A stretch of 33,915 bases of DNA from Candidatus Uhrbacteria bacterium (lineage in GTDB: Bacteria > Patescibacteriota > Patescibacteriia > 2-12-FULL-60-25), in assembly GCA_003231955.1 (NCBI GenBank), contig QIKL01000058.1:1-33915 (forward strand). Direction: 5' to 3'. A program made the position numbers and the translations under genes. Each line of letters begins with the position of its first letter. Position 1 is the stretch's first letter. The notes beneath the pieces are model-generated. The model saw only the letters and a program-made list of their open reading frames with translations. It was not told the origin of the DNA and searched no databases. Positions 16,158 to 31,349 of this stretch are shown in pieces.

Positions 16158-16871
16158 ATGAAATTTGCATGGTTTATATGGAGCTTGGGGCTTCTAGCAA
16201 TTTGGTTGCTTATCTACTTTTGTTTACCGACGCGATCAGCTCGTCGTCAAATGCTTCGTGTTAGTTTGTGGACGTCGCTGCTCGGGCTGACTGAACCATT
16301 GTTCGTACCGCGTTATTGGAACCCGCCGTCGTTGTTCGGGTTGGCTCAGTCAACCGGTTTTGATATTGAAAGTTTAATATTTGCATTTGGGGTTGGCGGA
16401 ATATCCGTCCTGTATGATCTTATTTTTCCGCGGATACGCTGTAAGATGGCGGATCGGGAACGAATGTCTCCTAGACATCGGTTTCATTTGTTGGCTATTT
16501 GGAGCGGACCTATTGTGTTTATAGGCTTTTTTATTTGGGGACGCCTAAATCCCATTTACGATGTAATTATCGCTCTTACTATTGGATCAATCGCAACAGC
16601 ATTGTGTCGTCCAGATCTACTGCGAAAGATGTTATTTACCGGTCCGGCATTCCTCTTTATGTATTTTTTTTATTTCTCGACACTCGTGTGGGCATATCCC
16701 GCGTACGTTCGGACGGTGTGGAATCTAAAAGAACTTACAGGAATTTTTATTGGAGGGATCCCTGTTGAGGAACTCATTTTCGCATTAGTCCTCGGTTTTT
16801 ATTGGGCTAGCGTATACGAGCACCTGATGATGGTGAAGCTCCGAGTGTTGCCTAGAAAAACGATGCCGTGA
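16158..16871 (+). CDS. Lycopene-cyclase-domain membrane protein
   Basis: A 237-residue polytopic membrane protein with about seven hydrophobic segments, resembling the CrtYc/CrtYd (CarR-type) lycopene cyclase domain family. The key C-terminal motif GIPVEELIFALVLGFYWASVYEH (around residue 200) matches the PxEE(hydrophobic)F signature, and a degenerate counterpart, DIESLIFAFGVGGI, lies around residue 70, so both halves of a fused YcYd form seem to be present. Known relatives cyclise lycopene to beta- or epsilon-carotene. No phytoene synthase, desaturase or rhodopsin gene is in this window, so the substrate is open. It is transcribed alone behind an extended -10 box. Confidence 0.7.
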   Translation: MKFAWFIWSLGLLAIWLLIYFCLPTRSARRQMLRVSLWTSLLGLTEPLFVPRYWNPPSLFGLAQSTGFDIESLIFAFGVGGISVLYDLIFPRIRCKMADRERMSPRHRFHLLAIWSGPIVFIGFFIWGRLNPIYDVIIALTIGSIATALCRPDLLRKMLFTGPAFLFMYFFYFSTLVWAYPAYVRTVWNLKELTGIFIGGIPVEELIFALVLGFYWASVYEHLMMVKLRVLPRKTMP

Positions 16872-16932: not shown

Positions 16933-17202
16933 CTACTTTTTTGTCTGCTGTTTTTCGTAGTATGCATCAAGTGCGCCGAGGATCCATCCAGTTAGTGCGC
17001 CCCATGCGGCCCATTCAATGACAATGAGAATGAAGCTAACAAGGTTCATTCCACTCCAACCCAGGGTTGACATCTGAAGGAACTGCTGGTGATAGGCCTG
17101 AACATCTACTGGGAGGATATATCCCCAAAAGAAGCAGCCAATGGCAGCGAGTGCCCCGAATGTTGCGAGAGTCGGAATAAGAAGGTTTCGATGAAGTGTC
17201 AT
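16933..17202 (-). CDS. Small two-pass membrane protein
   Basis: An 89-residue protein with two hydrophobic segments (about residues 8-29 and 52-76) and a Lys/Gln-rich tail (YYEKQQTKK). No family is recognised. The reading frame is open a further 65 codons upstream, but that part is low-quality sequence overlapping the divergent gene's promoter, and the ATG at 17202 begins the plausible protein. It is divergent from the cysteine/metal cluster starting at 17396 and could share its control region (17203-17395), but the proteins show no obvious relationship. Confidence 0.65.
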   Translation of the reverse strand: MTLHRNLLIPTLATFGALAAIGCFFWGYILPVDVQAYHQQFLQMSTLGWSGMNLVSFILIVIEWAAWGALTGWILGALDAYYEKQQTKK

Positions 17203-17383
17203 ATATATTATGTATATTACTGCGTAAATATAGTCACGTTGGACGCAAGTTTTTATTTTTATGGATCTTTCCAAACAACAGTATTCAATAGCAGATCCTA
17301 TTTTTAGGATATTCCTTGCTTTCTTTTTAGGCAAATCAGCCATCTGGCGGTTTACTGTTGTTGTTCTTTTATCCTCCGCGGGA

Positions 17384-17395: not shown

Positions 17396-17824
17396 ATGAA
17401 ACGGTTGACACTCGGGATGATTATTGCCGTCTTGGCGTTATTTCAGGTTATGGCGCTCTTTTCGATATCAACGATGAATATGCACGGCGTCATGGAACCC
17501 TGCACAATATCCTCTATTTTTGGCACAGGATGCGCGGGTGACATGAATGGCATAGAAATGCTCAGCCATCACATACTGGCAGCTTTACATACAGTTCCAA
17601 CAGCGATGCATGGAGATGCGGCTGCTGAAGCTTTTTTTGCACTCCTTGTTCTATTCGCCTTTTCAGGGCAGCAAAGACGATCGTTCATTCAGTTTTTAGA
17701 AGATACGTCAAAGCCACTTGGCGGAGTATTACGAAATAGAGAAGGTTTATTTTTCGCTTACAGACGCAAACTTCGTTGGTCAGTAGTCCAGGATGATGGA
17801 TATGGTTTATCCATCTGTGCGTGA
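17396..17824 (+). CDS. Met/His/Cys-rich membrane protein, cluster gene 1
   Basis: A 142-residue protein with an N-terminal hydrophobic segment (about residues 5-25) and a second one (about 76-90). The loop between them is loaded with potential soft-metal ligands: six Met, five His and two Cys in about 55 residues, including MNMHG, a Cys pair (36 and 46) and LSHHI. Such composition is typical of copper-handling loops; the function is inferred from composition and neighbours. The C-terminal 50 residues are basic and probably cytoplasmic. It is the first of five same-strand genes ending at 20690. Confidence 0.65.
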   Translation: MKRLTLGMIIAVLALFQVMALFSISTMNMHGVMEPCTISSIFGTGCAGDMNGIEMLSHHILAALHTVPTAMHGDAAAEAFFALLVLFAFSGQQRRSFIQFLEDTSKPLGGVLRNREGLFFAYRRKLRWSVVQDDGYGLSICA

Positions 17825-17852
17825 GTGTGCATGTCTTGAATGGCTTAAACGG

Positions 17853-17906
17853 AAGTTGAGACGCACAGTTACGCTGAGAAGTTTTTTCTAATTCTCGTCT
17901 CAACTT
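17853..17906 (+). promoter_or_regulatory. Inverted repeat before the DUF411 gene
   Basis: AAGTTGAGACG (17853-17863) and CGTCTCAACTT (17896-17906) are perfect 11-bp complements. Inside, GAGAA (17876-17880) pairs with TTCTC (17892-17896) around a T-run. The element ends 8 nt before the DUF411 start codon. It may be a terminator/attenuator of gene 1, an operator or an mRNA structure. The outer arms resemble those of the dyad at 18465-18506. Confidence 0.65.
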
Positions 17907-17914
17907 ATGAAATT

Positions 17915-18427
17915 ATGGAAACGTCTAAAACGTCTAATAATAGGACGTATATCTTCTGGGCTGTCCTCCTAAGCGTCATCGCAACAGGCGGCCTTATCTA
18001 CTATGCCTTCAGTAATAGGTCGACGTCGGAAGCGCCTCAATCGGGTCATTCGCAGCTTCTCGTCAAGGCTACACTATATAAAGATCCAACGTGCAGCTGT
18101 TGCATGGGTTATGTCGCGTATCTTAAGCGGAACGGATTTGATGTTAATGTCGTCAAAGAGCAAGACATGGAACCAATCAAACAAAAATTCCACGTTCCAG
18201 CGGACATGGAGAGCTGTCACACGGTGGTCATCGGTGACGTCTTTGTCGAAGGTCATGTACCAATTAAAGCTGTCAGAAAGCTCTTGAATAATCCTCGTGG
18301 ATTTGCTGGTATCGCACTTCCAGGAATGCCAGCTGGTTCTCCTGGTATGCCTGGTGTAAAAGCCGCGCCGTTTGATGTTCACAGCGTGTCTGTGAATGGA
18401 AAAGTAGCGAATTATCTTGAGATATAA
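17915..18427 (+). CDS. CopG-like DUF411 copper-binding protein, cluster gene 2
   Basis: A 170-residue DUF411 protein, the family of the Pseudomonas copper-resistance protein CopG, whose thioredoxin-like fold binds a multicopper cluster through cysteines. A membrane anchor (about residues 12-31) puts the domain outside the membrane. The diagnostic YKDPTCSCCMGY gives the CxCC ligands (C60, C62, C63), and DMESCHT supplies the fourth (C101). VVEGHVP-like (VFVEGHVP) and GIALPGMPAGSPGM are typical downstream family motifs. Length fits anchored members. Copper binding is inferred from the family; no CopA-type ATPase or Cu regulator is in this window. Confidence 0.92.
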   Translation: METSKTSNNRTYIFWAVLLSVIATGGLIYYAFSNRSTSEAPQSGHSQLLVKATLYKDPTCSCCMGYVAYLKRNGFDVNVVKEQDMEPIKQKFHVPADMESCHTVVIGDVFVEGHVPIKAVRKLLNNPRGFAGIALPGMPAGSPGMPGVKAAPFDVHSVSVNGKVANYLEI

Positions 18428-18464
18428 ACGAGGTCTCGCGATCCTTAATTAACATAAACGAAAT

Positions 18465-18506
18465 GTTGTGATACGACCCCGTCGTATGGCAGGGTTGTAT
18501 CACAAC
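18465..18506 (+). promoter_or_regulatory. Two-state dyad before cluster gene 3
   Basis: GTTGTGATACGACCC (18465-18479) pairs with GGGTTGTATCACAAC (18492-18506) over 15 positions with one G-T pair. A competing perfect stem, ATACGAC (18471-18477) with GTCGTAT (18481-18487), uses part of the same left arm. The element ends 14 nt before the start codon at 18521. Mutually exclusive hairpins suggest attenuation or a ligand-sensing leader; a protein operator is the alternative. Confidence 0.65.
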
Positions 18507-18520
18507 TTAAGACAAAAAAT

Positions 18521-18826
18521 ATGAGTTGTTGCAATAAAGGTAATCCAAAAACAACGGCAGCAGAAGAACAGCAACAGCATGTTCTAGAGACGGCCGCGCC
18601 AGAAGAACATATATCGCCGCATCGTCGTTCAAAGGTATCGGCTGGGAGCGTACAAATTATCGTGCTTGTGCTTTTAATCGTCCTGGCGGGTATTCAGACT
18701 ACTGAACTCTTCGGTATTGAACGTGCATCTGCCTCTTTAAAGTCTTCCACTCCTAGCATCTCTACTGCGGCGGCGGCGTCTGTGGCACCGTCTAGTGCAT
18801 TACCCAAGCAGGTTGGAGGCTGTTGA
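18521..18826 (+). CDS. Small single-pass protein with terminal cysteines, cluster gene 3
   Basis: A 101-residue protein with a cysteine pair at the very N-terminus (MSCCNKG), a hydrophilic segment with three His, one membrane span (about residues 46-62) and an Ala/Ser-rich outer segment ending in VGGC. The charge pattern (HRRSK before the span) predicts the N-terminus inside and the C-terminal Cys outside, so it presents thiols on both faces of the membrane. No family is recognised. It lies 4 nt before the triple-thioredoxin gene, and its last codons (GGTTGGAGG) hold a Shine-Dalgarno-like GGAGG for that gene. Confidence 0.65.
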   Translation: MSCCNKGNPKTTAAEEQQQHVLETAAPEEHISPHRRSKVSAGSVQIIVLVLLIVLAGIQTTELFGIERASASLKSSTPSISTAAAASVAPSSALPKQVGGC

Positions 18827-18830
18827 CGTT

Positions 18831-19961
18831 ATGCCAATCATTTATCGAAATAGTCTTTTCGTCATTCTTATTCTTCTCCTCGCTGGAGGCGCAGTTTTTG
18901 GCGGCGAGGCATGGTTTCATCTTTCCCAAAAGCAAGTTAAAGTTGCCGAAGCACAGCGTCCGGCAGATGTTCAAATTACGGCGATTACCGTCTCGGATTG
19001 TCCGGATTGTTACAGTTTGAAGAGTGCTATCGACGCTATTGCGGCGCAGCCTTTTACTGTTCAGAAAGAGATAGAGGTTGCGTCCACGTCGACCGAGGCA
19101 CGGGCGTTAATTCAGAAATACAATATTCAGAGGCTTCCGACGCTCGTGATCACAGGTGAAATAGATAAGCAAAATGTCCACGTATTCCTCTCTGCTAATA
19201 CTGATTTACGAGATGGGGCGCTCGTGTGGTCTATCCCACAACCCGTTTATATTGATCCAGCAACTGGGAAGGCTGTTGGTCGTGTCACGGTTACTGTAAT
19301 TAATGATCCTGCTTGTACCGATTGTACGGATGTGGCGTCCTATCTCGATCAGCTGGATCACATGGGAATGAAACAGAAGGCCTCATCCACGCTCAATTGG
19401 CGGTCGCCGAAGGCACGTAAATTGATAGCGGCATACGGGCTGACGTCAATCCCTGCGTTAATTCTTTCACCAGAAGCCGGTTTGTATCCATCAATTAAAC
19501 GTGCGTGGAAACGATTTGGGACAAGCACTGCTGATGGAACATTTGTCGCGAGTATTCATCACCCACCGTATGTTGAGTTACCTCAGGGGAAGGTTCGGGG
19601 TCGTGTTTCCGTTACGTATGTGGCGGATGCTAGCTGCTTATCATGTTATAACGTAGCAATCCAACAAAAAATCCTTCAACAAAAATTTGGTGTATCTCTG
19701 TCGCATAAATCTACAGTCGATGTGATGTCAGCCAAAGGGAAGAGACTTATTAAGACGTATAAAATCACAAGCGTTCCGACCTTTGTATTGACGGGTGACT
19801 ATGAGGCATATCCAAGCCTTATGAAAGTTTTGCCGTCCGTCGGGTCCATAGAAGCGAATGGCTCATATGTCTTTCGTGATGACGCACAAATAGGTACCTA
19901 TAAAGATTTGACAACCGGCAAGGTCGTGACGCACGGTGCTACGTCCTCGACCGGAACCTGA
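18831..19961 (+). CDS. Anchored protein with three tandem thioredoxin-like domains, cluster gene 4
   Basis: A 376-residue protein anchored by one N-terminal span (about residues 8-24) and carrying three consecutive thioredoxin-fold modules of about 105 residues. Each begins with a beta strand leading to a CxxC (CPDC 57-60, CTDC 162-165, CLSC 269-272) and contains the cis-proline strand (LPT 102, IPA 207, VPT 315). Each module ends in a tyrosine- and glycine-rich segment. None has the usual WCGPC or WCxxC, so redox properties may differ from classic thioredoxins. ATG 18831 is chosen because it follows GGAGG by 11 nt and starts the hydrophobic anchor; the frame opens 36 nt earlier. It is 9 nt before gene 5. 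Confidence 0.85.
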   Translation: MPIIYRNSLFVILILLLAGGAVFGGEAWFHLSQKQVKVAEAQRPADVQITAITVSDCPDCYSLKSAIDAIAAQPFTVQKEIEVASTSTEARALIQKYNIQRLPTLVITGEIDKQNVHVFLSANTDLRDGALVWSIPQPVYIDPATGKAVGRVTVTVINDPACTDCTDVASYLDQLDHMGMKQKASSTLNWRSPKARKLIAAYGLTSIPALILSPEAGLYPSIKRAWKRFGTSTADGTFVASIHHPPYVELPQGKVRGRVSVTYVADASCLSCYNVAIQQKILQQKFGVSLSHKSTVDVMSAKGKRLIKTYKITSVPTFVLTGDYEAYPSLMKVLPSVGSIEANGSYVFRDDAQIGTYKDLTTGKVVTHGATSSTGT

Positions 19962-19970
19962 TGTACGACT

Positions 19971-20690
19971 ATGAAATTTCATCTCAACAGTTCTATAGTA
20001 ATTCTTACCTTTTTTCTCTTCATTCTTCTTGGTTTGAATCAATTTCTCATCGCATCCGTATCCACGTCGCTTGGTGGTTCATCAATGACGTCGATCGCGG
20101 GAGATTTTTTTCACATAAAGAGTGCGAGCGCGAAGGTGATTATTATGCCGATATTGAATCCGGATGGGAGGACGACTTCATTGAAATCAATGCCGACTAT
20201 TACGGATGTAGCTGCAGAGCCTAAAGGAAGAGATATTGCTCAGGATGCTATGCACGTGATGGTCGGGACGGGTTCACCGTTTTACGCACCGTCTGGTGTG
20301 AGCTTCGATAATCCTGTCGGCGCAGAGAAGGCTTGGGGCTCGTATCAGTCGCTGCAACTTACTGCGTCTCAGGAACAGCGATTTACCGCATTGACGCATA
20401 TTCTGACATGTAATTATTGTTGCGGTACGCCGATGCGTGTAACTATTAACGCATCAGGTTCTTGTGCTCATGCACAAGCAGCACGAGGATTTTTCCGTTA
20501 TATGTTGAAAAAATACGGCGACACCTACAGCAACAAACAGCTGCTTGGCGAAGCATTTCGGTGGCAGGCAATCTGGTTTCCGCAGGGTGTTGTTCAGGAT
20601 TATCTGCTTGCGACGGGGAGAGGAAACGTTCTTGGACACCAAACACATGGCGGTGCGGGTATTGATGGCAAGCACGGAATTACGCTGTGA
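19971..20690 (+). CDS. Exported CxxCC...CxH protein, cluster gene 5
   Basis: A 239-residue protein with an N-terminal membrane anchor or signal (about residues 8-29). The C-terminal half contains a conserved-looking ligand set C147-x2-C150-C151 and, 13 residues later, C165-A-H167, followed by a helical region (about 168-215) ending in a WFPQGVVQDYLL segment. The arrangement recalls metal-binding domains such as the PCYCGC motif proteins, but the spacing is different and I cannot assign it. Its position behind CopG-like and thioredoxin-like genes makes a metal- or heme-handling or thiol-exchange role plausible. This is inference only. Confidence 0.7.
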   Translation: MKFHLNSSIVILTFFLFILLGLNQFLIASVSTSLGGSSMTSIAGDFFHIKSASAKVIIMPILNPDGRTTSLKSMPTITDVAAEPKGRDIAQDAMHVMVGTGSPFYAPSGVSFDNPVGAEKAWGSYQSLQLTASQEQRFTALTHILTCNYCCGTPMRVTINASGSCAHAQAARGFFRYMLKKYGDTYSNKQLLGEAFRWQAIWFPQGVVQDYLLATGRGNVLGHQTHGGAGIDGKHGITL

Positions 20691-20824: not shown

Positions 20825-20854
20825 AAAAAGACTGGTTCTTGTACCAGTCTTTTT
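20825..20854. terminator. Strong bidirectional terminator
   Basis: AAAAAGACTGGT (20825-20836) and ACCAGTCTTTTT (20843-20854) form a perfect 12-bp stem with a 6-nt loop. The A-run and T-run let it work on both strands: for the cysteine/metal cluster to the left and the leftward CBS gene to the right. Confidence 0.88.
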
Positions 20855-23620: not shown

Positions 23621-23700
23621 AAGAAGAAAGAATAACGTATTCATTTTTAACGACAGAAACTAAGAAAAAGTAGTATAAGATAATCTTGTTGATTTCATTC

Positions 23701-24522
23701 ATGCAAAAACATTTCAAAAAAAGATCGCAATTGCATTCGAAAGCTTCGTCTGACGGATCAGTCGCGTCTAATGAATTCGTAAAGCATGCACTTTTTGTTC
23801 GTGATCTTAATGTTTTTTTTGGTGATCATCATGTTTTACAGGATGTTTCGTTCACCTTAAAAAGGGGTGAGACATTCGTGATCATCGGACCTAATGGATC
23901 AGGGAAGACGGTTTTGCTTAAATCGCTTTTACATCTAATTCCGTTTAGCGGTTCTGTCACATGGTCCCCAGACACACGGATCGGATACGTCCCGCAGAAA
24001 ATCGACGCGGATCGGCATCTCCCCATTAATCTAGAGAATTTATTGGGAGCAAAAGCTGCGATTCTTGGATGCTCACGCAAGGAAATTTTTTCTGTATCAG
24101 AGGATGTTGGTTTAGATGCTGAAACATTAAAAACACCTGTCGGCCATCTTTCTGGAGGAAATTTTCAAAAAGCGCTTATCGCGTTTGCACTCCTCGGCGA
24201 TCCCACAGTAATCATCTTTGATGAGCCGACGGCTTCCCTAGATGAGCTTGCTGAAGAGCATGTATACGATCTTATGGATGTACTGAGAAAGAAACGAGGG
24301 TTGACTATCGTTTTAGTCTCGCACGATTTGAGCCTTGTACCAGCTTTGGCGAATACAGTGCTTTGTCTCAACAAGGTTGCAATCTGCCTTGGTCCGCCGC
24401 AGGAGGCATTGACAAAGGAAATTTTTGCTAAATTGTATCAGGGACCGCACAAGTTTTATTCACACTCTTCGTCTCACCGTAAAATTTTGGACCAGAGACA
24501 CCATGATGATCATCTTGAATGA
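23701..24522 (+). CDS. Metal ABC transporter ATP-binding protein (ZnuC/MntB-like)
   Basis: A 273-residue ABC ATPase of the zinc/manganese uptake type. Walker A GPNGSGKT, Q-loop in YVPQK, signature LSGGNFQK, Walker B IIFDEPT and the switch His (SHD) are in order. The C-terminal tail is His-rich (HSSSHRK, HHDDH), as in several metal transporters. ATG 23701 begins the sensible protein, but two TTG codons at 23686 and 23689 are in frame and TATAAG ends 6 nt before the first, so a leaderless TTG start is possible. Its stop overlaps the permease start (ATGA). Confidence 0.88.
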   Translation: MQKHFKKRSQLHSKASSDGSVASNEFVKHALFVRDLNVFFGDHHVLQDVSFTLKRGETFVIIGPNGSGKTVLLKSLLHLIPFSGSVTWSPDTRIGYVPQKIDADRHLPINLENLLGAKAAILGCSRKEIFSVSEDVGLDAETLKTPVGHLSGGNFQKALIAFALLGDPTVIIFDEPTASLDELAEEHVYDLMDVLRKKRGLTIVLVSHDLSLVPALANTVLCLNKVAICLGPPQEALTKEIFAKLYQGPHKFYSHSSSHRKILDQRHHDDHLE

Positions 24523-25292
24523 GTATGGGACTGACCATTACACCTGCATTTCTTCTCGCTATATCCGCCGCTGTCGCAACGGGTATCATGGGCGCATTCG
24601 CACAAATGAAGAAAATGACGTTGGCGGGGGACACAATGTCACACATTGCTCTTCCTGGAATTGGAATCGCGATTTTGTGGAATATAGATCCATTGATCGG
24701 TGCCGCTGTCGCGCTCGCTATTGGCGCGATTTTTATTTGGAAACTCGAGAAGGCAACGGGGCTTTCGACAGAGACGATGATTGGTGTGATTTTTGCCTCA
24801 GCTCTTGCGTTAGGAACTCTTGTGACGCCATCTGAAGCGCTCATAGGAGCATTATTTGGCGGTACGGGTGCGGTATCTCTTATGACGCTTTTTACGTATG
24901 TCGCACTCTCCCTTCTCGTAATCGCGTATGCATGGATTGAACGAAATCGTTTAATCCTCACACTCTTTAACGCAGACCTCGCGAATGTGACTGGGGTCAA
25001 CGTAAGCCGTGTTAATTTTTTATTTTTGCTTGCATTTGCGCTCACACTTGTTCTTGGTCTTCGATTCCTAGGAGCGATTCTCGTTGGTGCACTTGTTATT
25101 ATCCCCGCAGCGATTGGCCGACAGCTTACAGAGACACTACCAAGCTTTCTTTTCATTTCCGCAGGTTCGAGTGTCCTTTCTGTTATTTTTGGTTATTGGA
25201 TTTCCGCAGTATATGGGTTTCAGCTCGGACCGACGGTCGTTCTCGCCGCCTCCGCGATATTTCTTGTGAGCTTACTTAAAAAAAGAATGTGA
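24519..25292 (+). CDS. Metal ABC transporter permease (ZnuB/MntC-like)
   Basis: A 257-residue polytopic ABC-3 family permease with about eight membrane segments. Conserved signatures include GAFAQMKKMTLAGDTMSHIALPG (the cytoplasmic loop that meets the ATPase) and RFLGAILVGALVIIPAA near the C-terminus. It is coupled to the ATPase gene by ATGA overlap. No substrate-binding ZnuA-type protein is encoded next to it, so metal preference cannot be told and the binding protein must lie elsewhere or be absent. Confidence 0.93.
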   Translation: MSMGLTITPAFLLAISAAVATGIMGAFAQMKKMTLAGDTMSHIALPGIGIAILWNIDPLIGAAVALAIGAIFIWKLEKATGLSTETMIGVIFASALALGTLVTPSEALIGALFGGTGAVSLMTLFTYVALSLLVIAYAWIERNRLILTLFNADLANVTGVNVSRVNFLFLLAFALTLVLGLRFLGAILVGALVIIPAAIGRQLTETLPSFLFISAGSSVLSVIFGYWISAVYGFQLGPTVVLAASAIFLVSLLKKRM

Positions 25293-30158: not shown

Positions 30159-30218
30159 GCTGGGTAAAAACGTTCTGGGGTTGCTTTTTATACTAAAAGA
30201 CGTAAAATATTGTTGATT

Positions 30219-31349
30219 ATGGCATCAGCGAACATTCAGCGCCTGCGTCAGCGCTTGCAGTATATCCTTAAAGATTCTGGAATTATTTTGAATGGCCCGA
30301 ATCCATGGGATCCACAGATTAAAAATGATCGTTTTTATGCACGTATTTTTGCAAATGGGTCGCTCGGTCTTGGTGAGTCTTATATGGATGGATGGTGGGA
30401 GTGTGACCGCATTGATGATCTTATCACACGAATTTTTCTCTATAATATCAAGTCCACATTCAAAATTAATCTTCCAGTAATTAAAGACGCAATTCGCGCG
30501 CGGATCATGAATCGTCAGAACAGGCAGCGCGCATATTACATCGGCGAGAAGCATTATGACATTGGGAATGATTTATATCAGGCGATGCTTGATGCGCGCA
30601 TGGTATACACATGTGGATATTGGAAGGATGCACAGGATCTCGACACCGCTCAGGAGAACAAACTTGATCTTGTCTGTCGTAAGATTGGTGTAAAACCTGG
30701 GCAGACCATTCTTGACATCGGCTGTGGATGGGGAAGTTTCGCTAAGTTCGCGGCAGAGCGTTATGGTGCGCATGTCACAGGGATCACTGTCTCAAAGGAG
30801 CAGGCTAAGCTCGCTGAAGATCGCTGTGCTGGCTTGCCCGTTACGATCCGTCTACAGGATTACCGCGATGTTAATGAGAAGTTTGATCATGTTATTTCAC
30901 TTGGGATGTTTGAGCACGTTGGTTATAAAAATTATCGGACGTATTTTAATGTTGCACGACGGTGTATTAAGGATGATGGATTTTTTCTTTTGCATACGAT
31001 TGGTGGGAACATTTCTACAACATCGACAGATCCATGGATTGAACGGTATATTTTTCCGAATTCAATGATTCCGTCGGTCAAACAGATCGCCGTGGCGGGG
31101 GAGGGGCTGTTTGTGATGGAGGATTGGCATAATTTTGGTTCGGATTATGATAAGACGCTTCTTGCTTGGTATCACAATGTTGAATCACATTGGAATGAGT
31201 TAGAAGATCATTATAATGATCGCTTTCATCGCATGTGGCGATTTTATCTCTTATGTTGTGCTGGAACGTTTCGTTCACGATTAAATCAGCTATGGGAGGT
31301 GGTATTTTCTCCTAATGGTGTACCTGGCGGATATGTTTCTATCCGATAG
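30219..31349 (+). CDS. cfa: Cyclopropane-fatty-acyl-phospholipid synthase family methyltransferase
   Basis: A 376-residue SAM-dependent enzyme of the CFA/mycolic-acid cyclopropane synthase family, which methylates the double bond of unsaturated phospholipid acyl chains. The N-terminal part has GLGESYMDGWWECDRIDDL; the Rossmann domain has the family's HYDIGNDLY, the SAM motif LDIGCGWGSFAKFAAE, GITVSKEQ and FEHVGYKNY. The conserved late block (around WYHN...RMWRFYL) is present. Length is normal. ATG 30219 is chosen over the TTG at 30210. CPR cells generally lack fatty-acid synthesis, so it would act on lipids obtained from elsewhere; this is general knowledge, not shown here. Confidence 0.93.
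   Translation: MASANIQRLRQRLQYILKDSGIILNGPNPWDPQIKNDRFYARIFANGSLGLGESYMDGWWECDRIDDLITRIFLYNIKSTFKINLPVIKDAIRARIMNRQNRQRAYYIGEKHYDIGNDLYQAMLDARMVYTCGYWKDAQDLDTAQENKLDLVCRKIGVKPGQTILDIGCGWGSFAKFAAERYGAHVTGITVSKEQAKLAEDRCAGLPVTIRLQDYRDVNEKFDHVISLGMFEHVGYKNYRTYFNVARRCIKDDGFFLLHTIGGNISTTSTDPWIERYIFPNSMIPSVKQIAVAGEGLFVMEDWHNFGSDYDKTLLAWYHNVESHWNELEDHYNDRFHRMWRFYLLCCAGTFRSRLNQLWEVVFSPNGVPGGYVSIR

Follow-up and report, generated by a model that had tools for sequence, protein, structure and literature searches.

The window (the whole stretch of DNA analysed, 33,915 nucleotides of a Candidatus Uhrbacteria contig) contains five consecutive genes on the forward strand, which are flanked and punctuated by the following features:

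16158..16871, + strand: lycopene-cyclase-domain membrane protein (Pfam); genes of the same type lie near the module in loci L008, L103 and L104
16933..17203, - strand: divergent DUF5676-like gene with two transmembrane segments (sub-threshold Pfam match, E 0.0018)
17396..17824, + strand: gene 1 (accessory), two-pass membrane protein with an outward Met/His/Cys loop (transmembrane count by sequence inspection)
17915..18427, + strand: gene 2 (accessory), membrane-anchored DUF411/CopG copper protein with CSCC, SCHT and GMP..SPGM (Pfam and PDB matches)
18465..18506, no strand assigned: intergenic hairpin with a 15-bp stem in the gap between genes 2 and 3 (RNA fold z = -6.3)
18521..18826, + strand: gene 3 (core), short single-pass protein with a flexible linker and a C-terminal LPKQVGGC tail (50 proteins share the plan)
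18831..19961, + strand: gene 4 (core), membrane-anchored tandem (triple) thioredoxin-like protein (Pfam Thioredoxin_3, 8.1e-09)
19971..20690, + strand: gene 5 (core), exported, N-terminally anchored C-x2-CC-G...C-x-H protein of an unnamed family with conserved ligands and an H-x2-HGGAG-x4-HG tail
20825..20854, no strand assigned: terminator-like inverted repeat 3' of gene 5

All five reading frames occupy the positions and strand given in an earlier note on this DNA, and the ligands described there are present as well: the Met/His/Cys loop of gene 1, CSCC and SCHT in gene 2, CPDC, CTDC and CLSC in gene 4, and CNYCC...CAH in gene 5. For gene 4, the mechanical open reading frame begins at GTG 18795, and the ATG at 18831 is the likelier start. 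Gene 3 was said to have cysteines at both ends, and it does, but only the terminal VGGC is conserved; a cysteine preceding the transmembrane segment occurs in 8 of 50 homologues. DUF5676-like genes are repeated neighbours of gene 5 loci.

Genes 2 and 4 are the only two of the five that exceed Pfam cut-offs. Gene 2 scores 75.3 bits for DUF411 (2.9e-21; curated cut-off 27) and matches the CopG structure 6wis (2.5e-22), with the CxCC motif and the downstream Cys/Met residues aligned, and by sequence is a member of this family. CopG binds a tetranuclear copper cluster, and its reviewed contexts are cutFOG, copA and cusCBA (PMC7558416). The present protein differs in being anchored by an N-terminal transmembrane segment and in adjoining genes 3-5, which are unmentioned among the CopG contexts of that review. 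Gene 4 matches thioredoxin families (35.8 bits for Thioredoxin_3, cut-off 24.8) and the PDO structure 1a8l (1.1e-07). The CxxC motifs of its first and last domains (four cysteines) and a proline are kept in 44/44 homologues, and the middle domain is confined to triple-domain members.

Gene 5 has no significant match among Pfam, NCBIfam or PDB sequences. Its ligands C150, C151, C165 and H167 are kept in 52/53 homologues, and the same core ligands occur in Burkholderia relatives. One further cysteine, kept in 51/53 homologues, is lost from the window protein, which has G163 in its place. Single-sequence AlphaFold models of genes 5 and 4 had mean pLDDT values of 45 and 36, respectively, too poor for use or for fold search.

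Gene 5 is present in 48 of 381 class-sampled genomes, and 53 loci were read for their neighbourhoods. At 49 of these, a short single-pass VGGC protein is encoded in the same orientation as gene 5 and no more than 2.5 kb from it; gene 4 lies beside gene 5 at 44, and DUF411 is found at only five. The conserved unit is therefore a three-gene core (genes 3, 4 and 5), with gene 1 and DUF411/CopG forming an accessory pair; the check set out in the earlier note, on co-occurrence in relatives and conservation of cysteines, turns out in favour of gene 3 (terminal VGGC), gene 4 and gene 5, but co-occurrence does not extend to that pair. Within the accessory pair, the CxCC motif of gene 2 and its downstream Cys/Met residues are conserved in five loci. 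In 5/5 DUF411-bearing loci, the gene ahead of DUF411 is either a weak homologue of gene 1 or its counterpart by position (L008 and L107 by profile, L044 and L045 by position and alignment), and a cysteine pair is retained in most.

The linkage of genes 3-5 is far above chance. A separate search of the 381 genomes for gene 4 gave 14 matches, 11 of them in gene 5-positive genomes (Fisher p 5e-17), and a twelfth match, L140, carries the whole set in divergent form. Gene 4 and gene 5 distances are correlated (r = 0.51, compared with a permutation maximum of 0.15). Gene order is variable (g5-g3-g4, g3-g4-g5 and g4-g3-g5) and the module is missing from most genomes, as might be seen if these were loosely associated cysteine proteins without a joint function, ordered by chance in a small genome. 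We find that reading scarcely credible, since it is already contradicted by co-location across many families, by the Fisher test and by the restriction of the tail to gene 5 loci; the distance correlation also stands against it. No relative was found in viral contigs searched with A4, in phages searched with the RPCCG-type protein of L049, or in plasmids searched with gene 4 and with gene 5 of L044. A gene 5 contig search gave a single match (L007, Rhodocyclaceae), which was read and set aside: it spans 39 residues and runs antisense to a gene of another kind.

The feature that we consider most telling, and which the earlier note overlooked, is the VGGC tail of gene 3. All 50 proteins of the gene 3 plan end in VGGC, and a DNA-pattern search of 332 genomes for the tail gave 11 matches, all of them gene 3 or gene 5 ends in gene 5 loci (the reversed-pattern control gave 2). 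Gene 5 itself ends in VGGC in 25 proteins, and in 21 others it carries H-x2-HGGAG-x4-HG instead (kept in 21/21), so that exchange of the tail cysteine for a conserved histidine leaves ligands for a metal in place while giving up the chemistry of a thiol. The tail is present in cis or in trans in every gene 5 locus read without a contig-end cut, a count that takes in the CxxCC type together with the RPCCG-type loci L047-L050 and L140 (tail GGxCG(A/V) or VGGCG). Sorting of the LPxTG kind, as the string LPxMVGGC might bring to mind, is unsupported because the tail is the very C-terminus, with no hydrophobic segment after it. In mercuric reductase and thioredoxin reductase, an active site receives its metal or electrons from a mobile C-terminal cysteine tail; here the arm is a separate, membrane-tethered protein with a fixed VGGC end, which is often found on gene 5 too. 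We tentatively propose, at somewhat less than even confidence, that VGGC is a dedicated transfer tail, that is, a membrane-tethered thiol arm ending in a fixed tetrapeptide. The tail would come from a separate protein (gene 3, in trans), from the end of gene 5 itself (in cis) or from both, and would dock at the CC...C-x-H site in gene 5 to transfer Cu(I) or electrons on the surface of the cell. In the literature accessible to us, nothing was found on a VGGC tail or on this gene set.

Copper-type genes recur among the neighbours of these loci. A heavy-metal P-ATPase lies within 10 kb of the module in 16/40 genomes (1.1 expected), and several of the adjacent ATPases have Cu+-type CPC and YN/MxxSS motifs; others nearby are of the CPH type, and many loci have no copper ATPase within 10 kb. 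CsoR adjoins gene 5 in L042 and L043, and cupredoxins are among the neighbours in relatives. Many loci are instead tied to BlaI/M56, ArsR-like regulators or DUF1573 rather than to a copper regulator. The claim that no copper ATPase, CcdA, VKOR or regulator accompanies the cluster is correct locally, but the same genome encodes all of these elsewhere, and among the relatives a CcdA-like gene lies within 8 kb in 35/53 loci. DUF1573 (21/53), ArsR-like (12/53) and TlpA-like (10/53) genes also recur near gene 5.

Distant relatives of gene 5 occur in Burkholderiales plasmid copper islands (with cueR, DUF411, SCO, CcdA and P-ATPase) and mercury islands (merA/merB). These hypothetical proteins and those of L047-L050, all of RPCC(G/D)...DCNHG type, share the invariant CC...C-x-H core; CcdA accompanies the plasmid copies in their Cu/Hg islands, and DUF411 is present as well beside one of them. 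They differ from gene 5 in being larger, and those of L047-L050 carry a cis cysteine tail (GGGGCGA/GGSCGA type). A separate VGGC protein was seen only in L140, where the cis tail is missing and a QVGGCG protein is encoded apart.

The same neighbourhood could be taken to mean that the module serves resistance to, or uptake of, a soft metal or metalloid other than copper (Hg, Ag, As), and that copper genes lie nearby because resistance islands are shared. A merA-like gene (by inspection) and an ArsR-type gene (by profile) stand beside the module in L012, the Paraburkholderia copies adjoin merA/merB, and ArsR-like genes recur as above. We regard this as quite improbable: neighbours of copper type are commoner, inspection showed a MerA-like gene at just one locus, and neither MerP nor MerT was noticed.

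The CcdA-like, DUF1573 and TlpA-like neighbours, together with the two invariant CxxC domains of gene 4, would also suit a dedicated thiol-disulfide relay, in which CcdA would feed the tandem thioredoxin and this in turn a hairpin protein resembling CcmH, with VGGC as a redox shuttle and the reduction or isomerisation of surface proteins, not metal handling, as its purpose. The gene 5 profile aligns with CcmH around the CxxC by hhalign (76%, E 2.2e-05; 48%, E 1.9e-04). The CcmH profile (PF03918) matched 2/37 family members (best E 0.0022), none above the curated cut-off (L012 scores 16.8 against 25), and did not match the window protein. The arrangement resembles the CcdA-CcmG-CcmH branch of cytochrome c maturation in having a CcdA-type carrier (in relatives), a membrane-anchored thioredoxin and a cysteine protein (gene 5, whose profile match to CcmH is weak), but gene 5 has CC and C-x-H rather than LRCxxC, and the VGGC protein is an addition. 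Cytochrome c maturation or oxidase assembly as the purpose was rejected for the host genome, which has no match to the cytochrome c assembly protein (PF01578) or to haem-copper oxidase (PF00115). A relay of thiols alone seems unlikely to us, given the association with copper ATPase, CsoR and CopG, the conserved histidine in place of the tail cysteine in 21 gene 5 proteins, the invariant histidine and CC pair, which are unlike a CxxC reductase, and a host without cytochrome c assembly.

We consider it fairly probable that genes 3-5 form a conserved module outside the cytoplasm which takes up and hands on Cu(I), or a different soft metal, while keeping its thiols reduced, and which is joined here to CopG/DUF411 and gene 1. 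The original proposal of a copper or thiol-relay function gains independent support from the relatives' neighbours (Cu ATPases, CsoR, CopG, CcdA and cupredoxins), but its dedicated five-gene module does not stand. Reducing power would enter by way of a CcdA-type protein, which adjoins the module in most relatives and is encoded elsewhere in the host genome, and would be carried outside the membrane by the tandem thioredoxin of gene 4. The CC...C-x-H site of gene 5 would be the acceptor of metal (or of metal and thiol), and the terminal VGGC cysteine of gene 3, on its flexible membrane-tethered linker, would act as a mobile arm that reaches this site and either completes it or moves metal or electrons. 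The metal may be other than copper, as CPH-type ATPases and mercury genes occur beside some of the relatives' loci. The TlpA/Sco/PCuAC pathway of copper-site assembly is comparable, in that an extracytoplasmic thioredoxin reduces copper-binding cysteines (PMC7558416), but the present host has no haem-copper oxidase, and neither Sco nor PCuAC was identified in the window.

Three cysteine proteins that face outward thus recur as a set, repeatedly beside copper genes, and have the look of a surface system, so far undescribed, that handles copper or its thiols. Small-genome bacteria of this kind are mostly without respiratory oxidases, yet a fraction across the phylum retain this copper-linked envelope system built of unnamed families, in which the invariant VGGC tail and the CC...C-x-H site provide exact residues for mutation. 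If the arm mechanism is true, it would constitute a new way for Cu(I) or a reactive thiol to be presented on the outer side of the membrane, and the hypothetical proteins of Burkholderiales copper and mercury islands would gain a suggested function.

The five genes at 17396-20690, which the earlier note had read as an envelope cluster of cysteine and metal-ligand proteins for copper sequestration or a thiol relay, are present as five consecutive same-strand ORFs. They comprise a core module, genes 3-5 (a short single-TM protein ending in VGGC, a tandem thioredoxin and a C-x2-CC-G...C-x-H protein), and an accessory pair, genes 1 and 2 (a two-pass Met/His/Cys protein and a DUF411/CopG protein). 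Genes 3 and 4 are separated by 4 bases and genes 4 and 5 by 9 (taking ATG 18831 as the gene 4 start); the gaps between genes 1 and 2 and between genes 2 and 3 are about 90 bases each and contain inverted repeats, possibly for transcript processing or as operators. Pfam assigns gene 2 to DUF411 (2.9e-21) and gene 4 to thioredoxin, and gives no significant family for genes 1, 3 or 5; the solved structure of the copper protein CopG (6wis) also matches gene 2 (2.5e-22).

Features flanking and separating the genes
16158-16871, lycopene-cyclase-domain membrane protein
16933-17203, minus strand, DUF5676-like protein with two TMs, divergent from gene 1
17853-17906, inverted repeat between genes 1 and 2, before gene 2
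18465-18506, very stable hairpin between genes 2 and 3, directly before gene 3 (15-bp stem, RNA z = -6.3, without a T-run)
20825-20854, terminator-like repeat after gene 5
23686-25292, ABC-type metal transporter pair (ATPase and ABC-3 permease)
30210-31349, cyclopropane-fatty-acid synthase-like protein (CMAS, 1.1e-86)

Among close genomes, 6 of 57 contain relatives of gene 5; for the samples by phylum and by class, each of 381 genomes, the counts are 21 and 48 (the host genome counted). More than 50 neighborhoods were fetched and read with profiles built in this analysis. A same-strand VGGC-ending protein of <160 aa lies within 2.5 kb of gene 5 in 49 of 53 loci. Among the four others, L010, L042 and L117 are near contig ends, and in L042, L043 and L117 gene 5 itself carries the VGGC tail. 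Gene 4 is present in 44 of the 53 loci. When gene 4 was searched for independently in 381 genomes, 14 scored positive, and 11 of these also have gene 5 (Fisher p 5e-17); in a twelfth, G121 (locus L140), gene 5 is divergent and of the RPCCG type, and gene 3 has the QVGGCG form. Protein distances of genes 4 and 5 correlate with r 0.51 (best among 2000 permutations, 0.15), a value to which shared ancestry contributes.

Fifty gene 3 proteins are built alike: an N-terminal segment, one TM, a Ser/Thr/Ala/Pro/Gly-rich linker of roughly 30-57 residues, and VGGC as the final residues. Cysteines had been proposed at both ends; the C-terminal one holds in all 50, and the pre-TM one, which the window's protein has, is found in only 8. 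The tail was also sought in 332 genomes, gene 5 not being consulted, with a degenerate DNA pattern (P-x-[M/Q-type]-V-G-G-C-stop) that catches only part of the tails. Its 11 matches, at gene 3 or gene 5 ends, fall in 8 genomes, all 8 gene 5-positive; a reversed control gave 2.

In gene 5, C150, C151, C165 and H167 are kept in 52 of 53 sequences (the exception, L051, has an interrupted frame) and show no variation either in a set of 37 sequences that takes in Burkholderiales relatives. Of the 53, 47 keep C147 and 51 keep a Cys two before C165, which is missing from the window's protein. The C-terminus is VGGC in 25 loci, H-x2-HGGAG-x4-HG in 21 (as in the window; each of the three His is kept throughout) and mixed in seven. 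In gene 4, the CxxC motifs of two thioredoxin domains are invariant in 44 of 44, and some members, including the window's, have an extra middle domain. The main rival to metal handling is a pure redox relay; metal ligation would account for the Cys-for-His exchange in the gene 5 tail better than thiol exchange alone. We consider it rather probable that the module performs extracytoplasmic Cu(I)/soft-metal handling and would be kept reduced by a CcdA-thioredoxin relay. More tentatively, and with some doubt, the VGGC tail might be a mobile arm that serves the CC...CxH site.

Within 8 kb of the 53 gene 5 genes, profiles built from neighbor clusters (M56, BlaI, CsoR and DsbD_TM representatives checked against Pfam, remaining labels assigned by inspection) identify CcdA-like proteins (35), HMA-type membrane proteins (24), DUF1573 (21), M56 (19), BlaI (18), P-type ATPases (14), ArsR-like (12), TlpA-like (10), CsoR (9), cupredoxins (8) and DUF411 (5). 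A curated heavy-metal ATPase model has 54 matches across 40 gene 5-bearing genomes, with one <=10 kb from gene 5 in 16 of the 40 (1.1 expected), and several module-adjacent ATPases have Cu+-type CPC and YN/MxxSS signatures. In L042 and L043, CsoR immediately precedes gene 5 and shares its strand. A BlaI-type repressor and M56 peptidase pair adjoins the module in L039-L041, L035, L036, L095, L099, L100 and others, which suggests a role in sensing the exterior and not in responding to beta-lactams. Two more unnamed families accompany the module (L008, L011, L035, L037, L046 and others): one is a TM protein whose motif is of the ACCMHN type, and the other, ~150 aa long, has a GGHH motif. A GCPxCGA-bearing TM domain occurs with it too, in some cases as a fusion with gene 5.

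Some of the window's other genes recur as well: DUF5676-like genes close to several of the gene 5 loci (L047-L049, L089, L092 and L104 among them), the lycopene-cyclase-domain protein near the module in three further loci (L008 1498-2226, L103 1241, L104 10131), and similar metal ABC genes near it in two loci of the same family, L008 and L010. The host genome is 0.84 Mb (completeness rating 100%), consistent with the Patescibacteria assignment; the CMAS-like protein is notable in so small a genome. On other contigs, this genome encodes a CPC ATPase carrying two HMA motifs, CsoR paired with a CPH ATPase, CcdA adjoining a CPYC protein, and VKOR. Searches of it for cytochrome c assembly proteins and haem-copper oxidases gave no match, which agrees with a report that oxygen reductases are rare in Patescibacteria (PMC7507113).

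Gene 5 has no significant match in Pfam, NCBIfam or PDB sequences. It could be a distant CcmH-like hairpin (hhalign 76%) but does not qualify as a CcmH member in Pfam. We found no paper in the open literature on the VGGC tail or the gene set. The parts are of known kinds (CopG, thioredoxin, CcdA); the one that could go further is the shared VGGC tail. Distant RPCC-type relatives sit on Burkholderiales plasmids, in islands that also carry cueR, CcdA, TlpA, DUF411, SCO and a P-ATPase, or near merA/merB. The CC...C-x-H core is common to hypothetical proteins of these copper/mercury plasmids (L128 8884-9801; L129 8875-9825), which are candidates for annotation.
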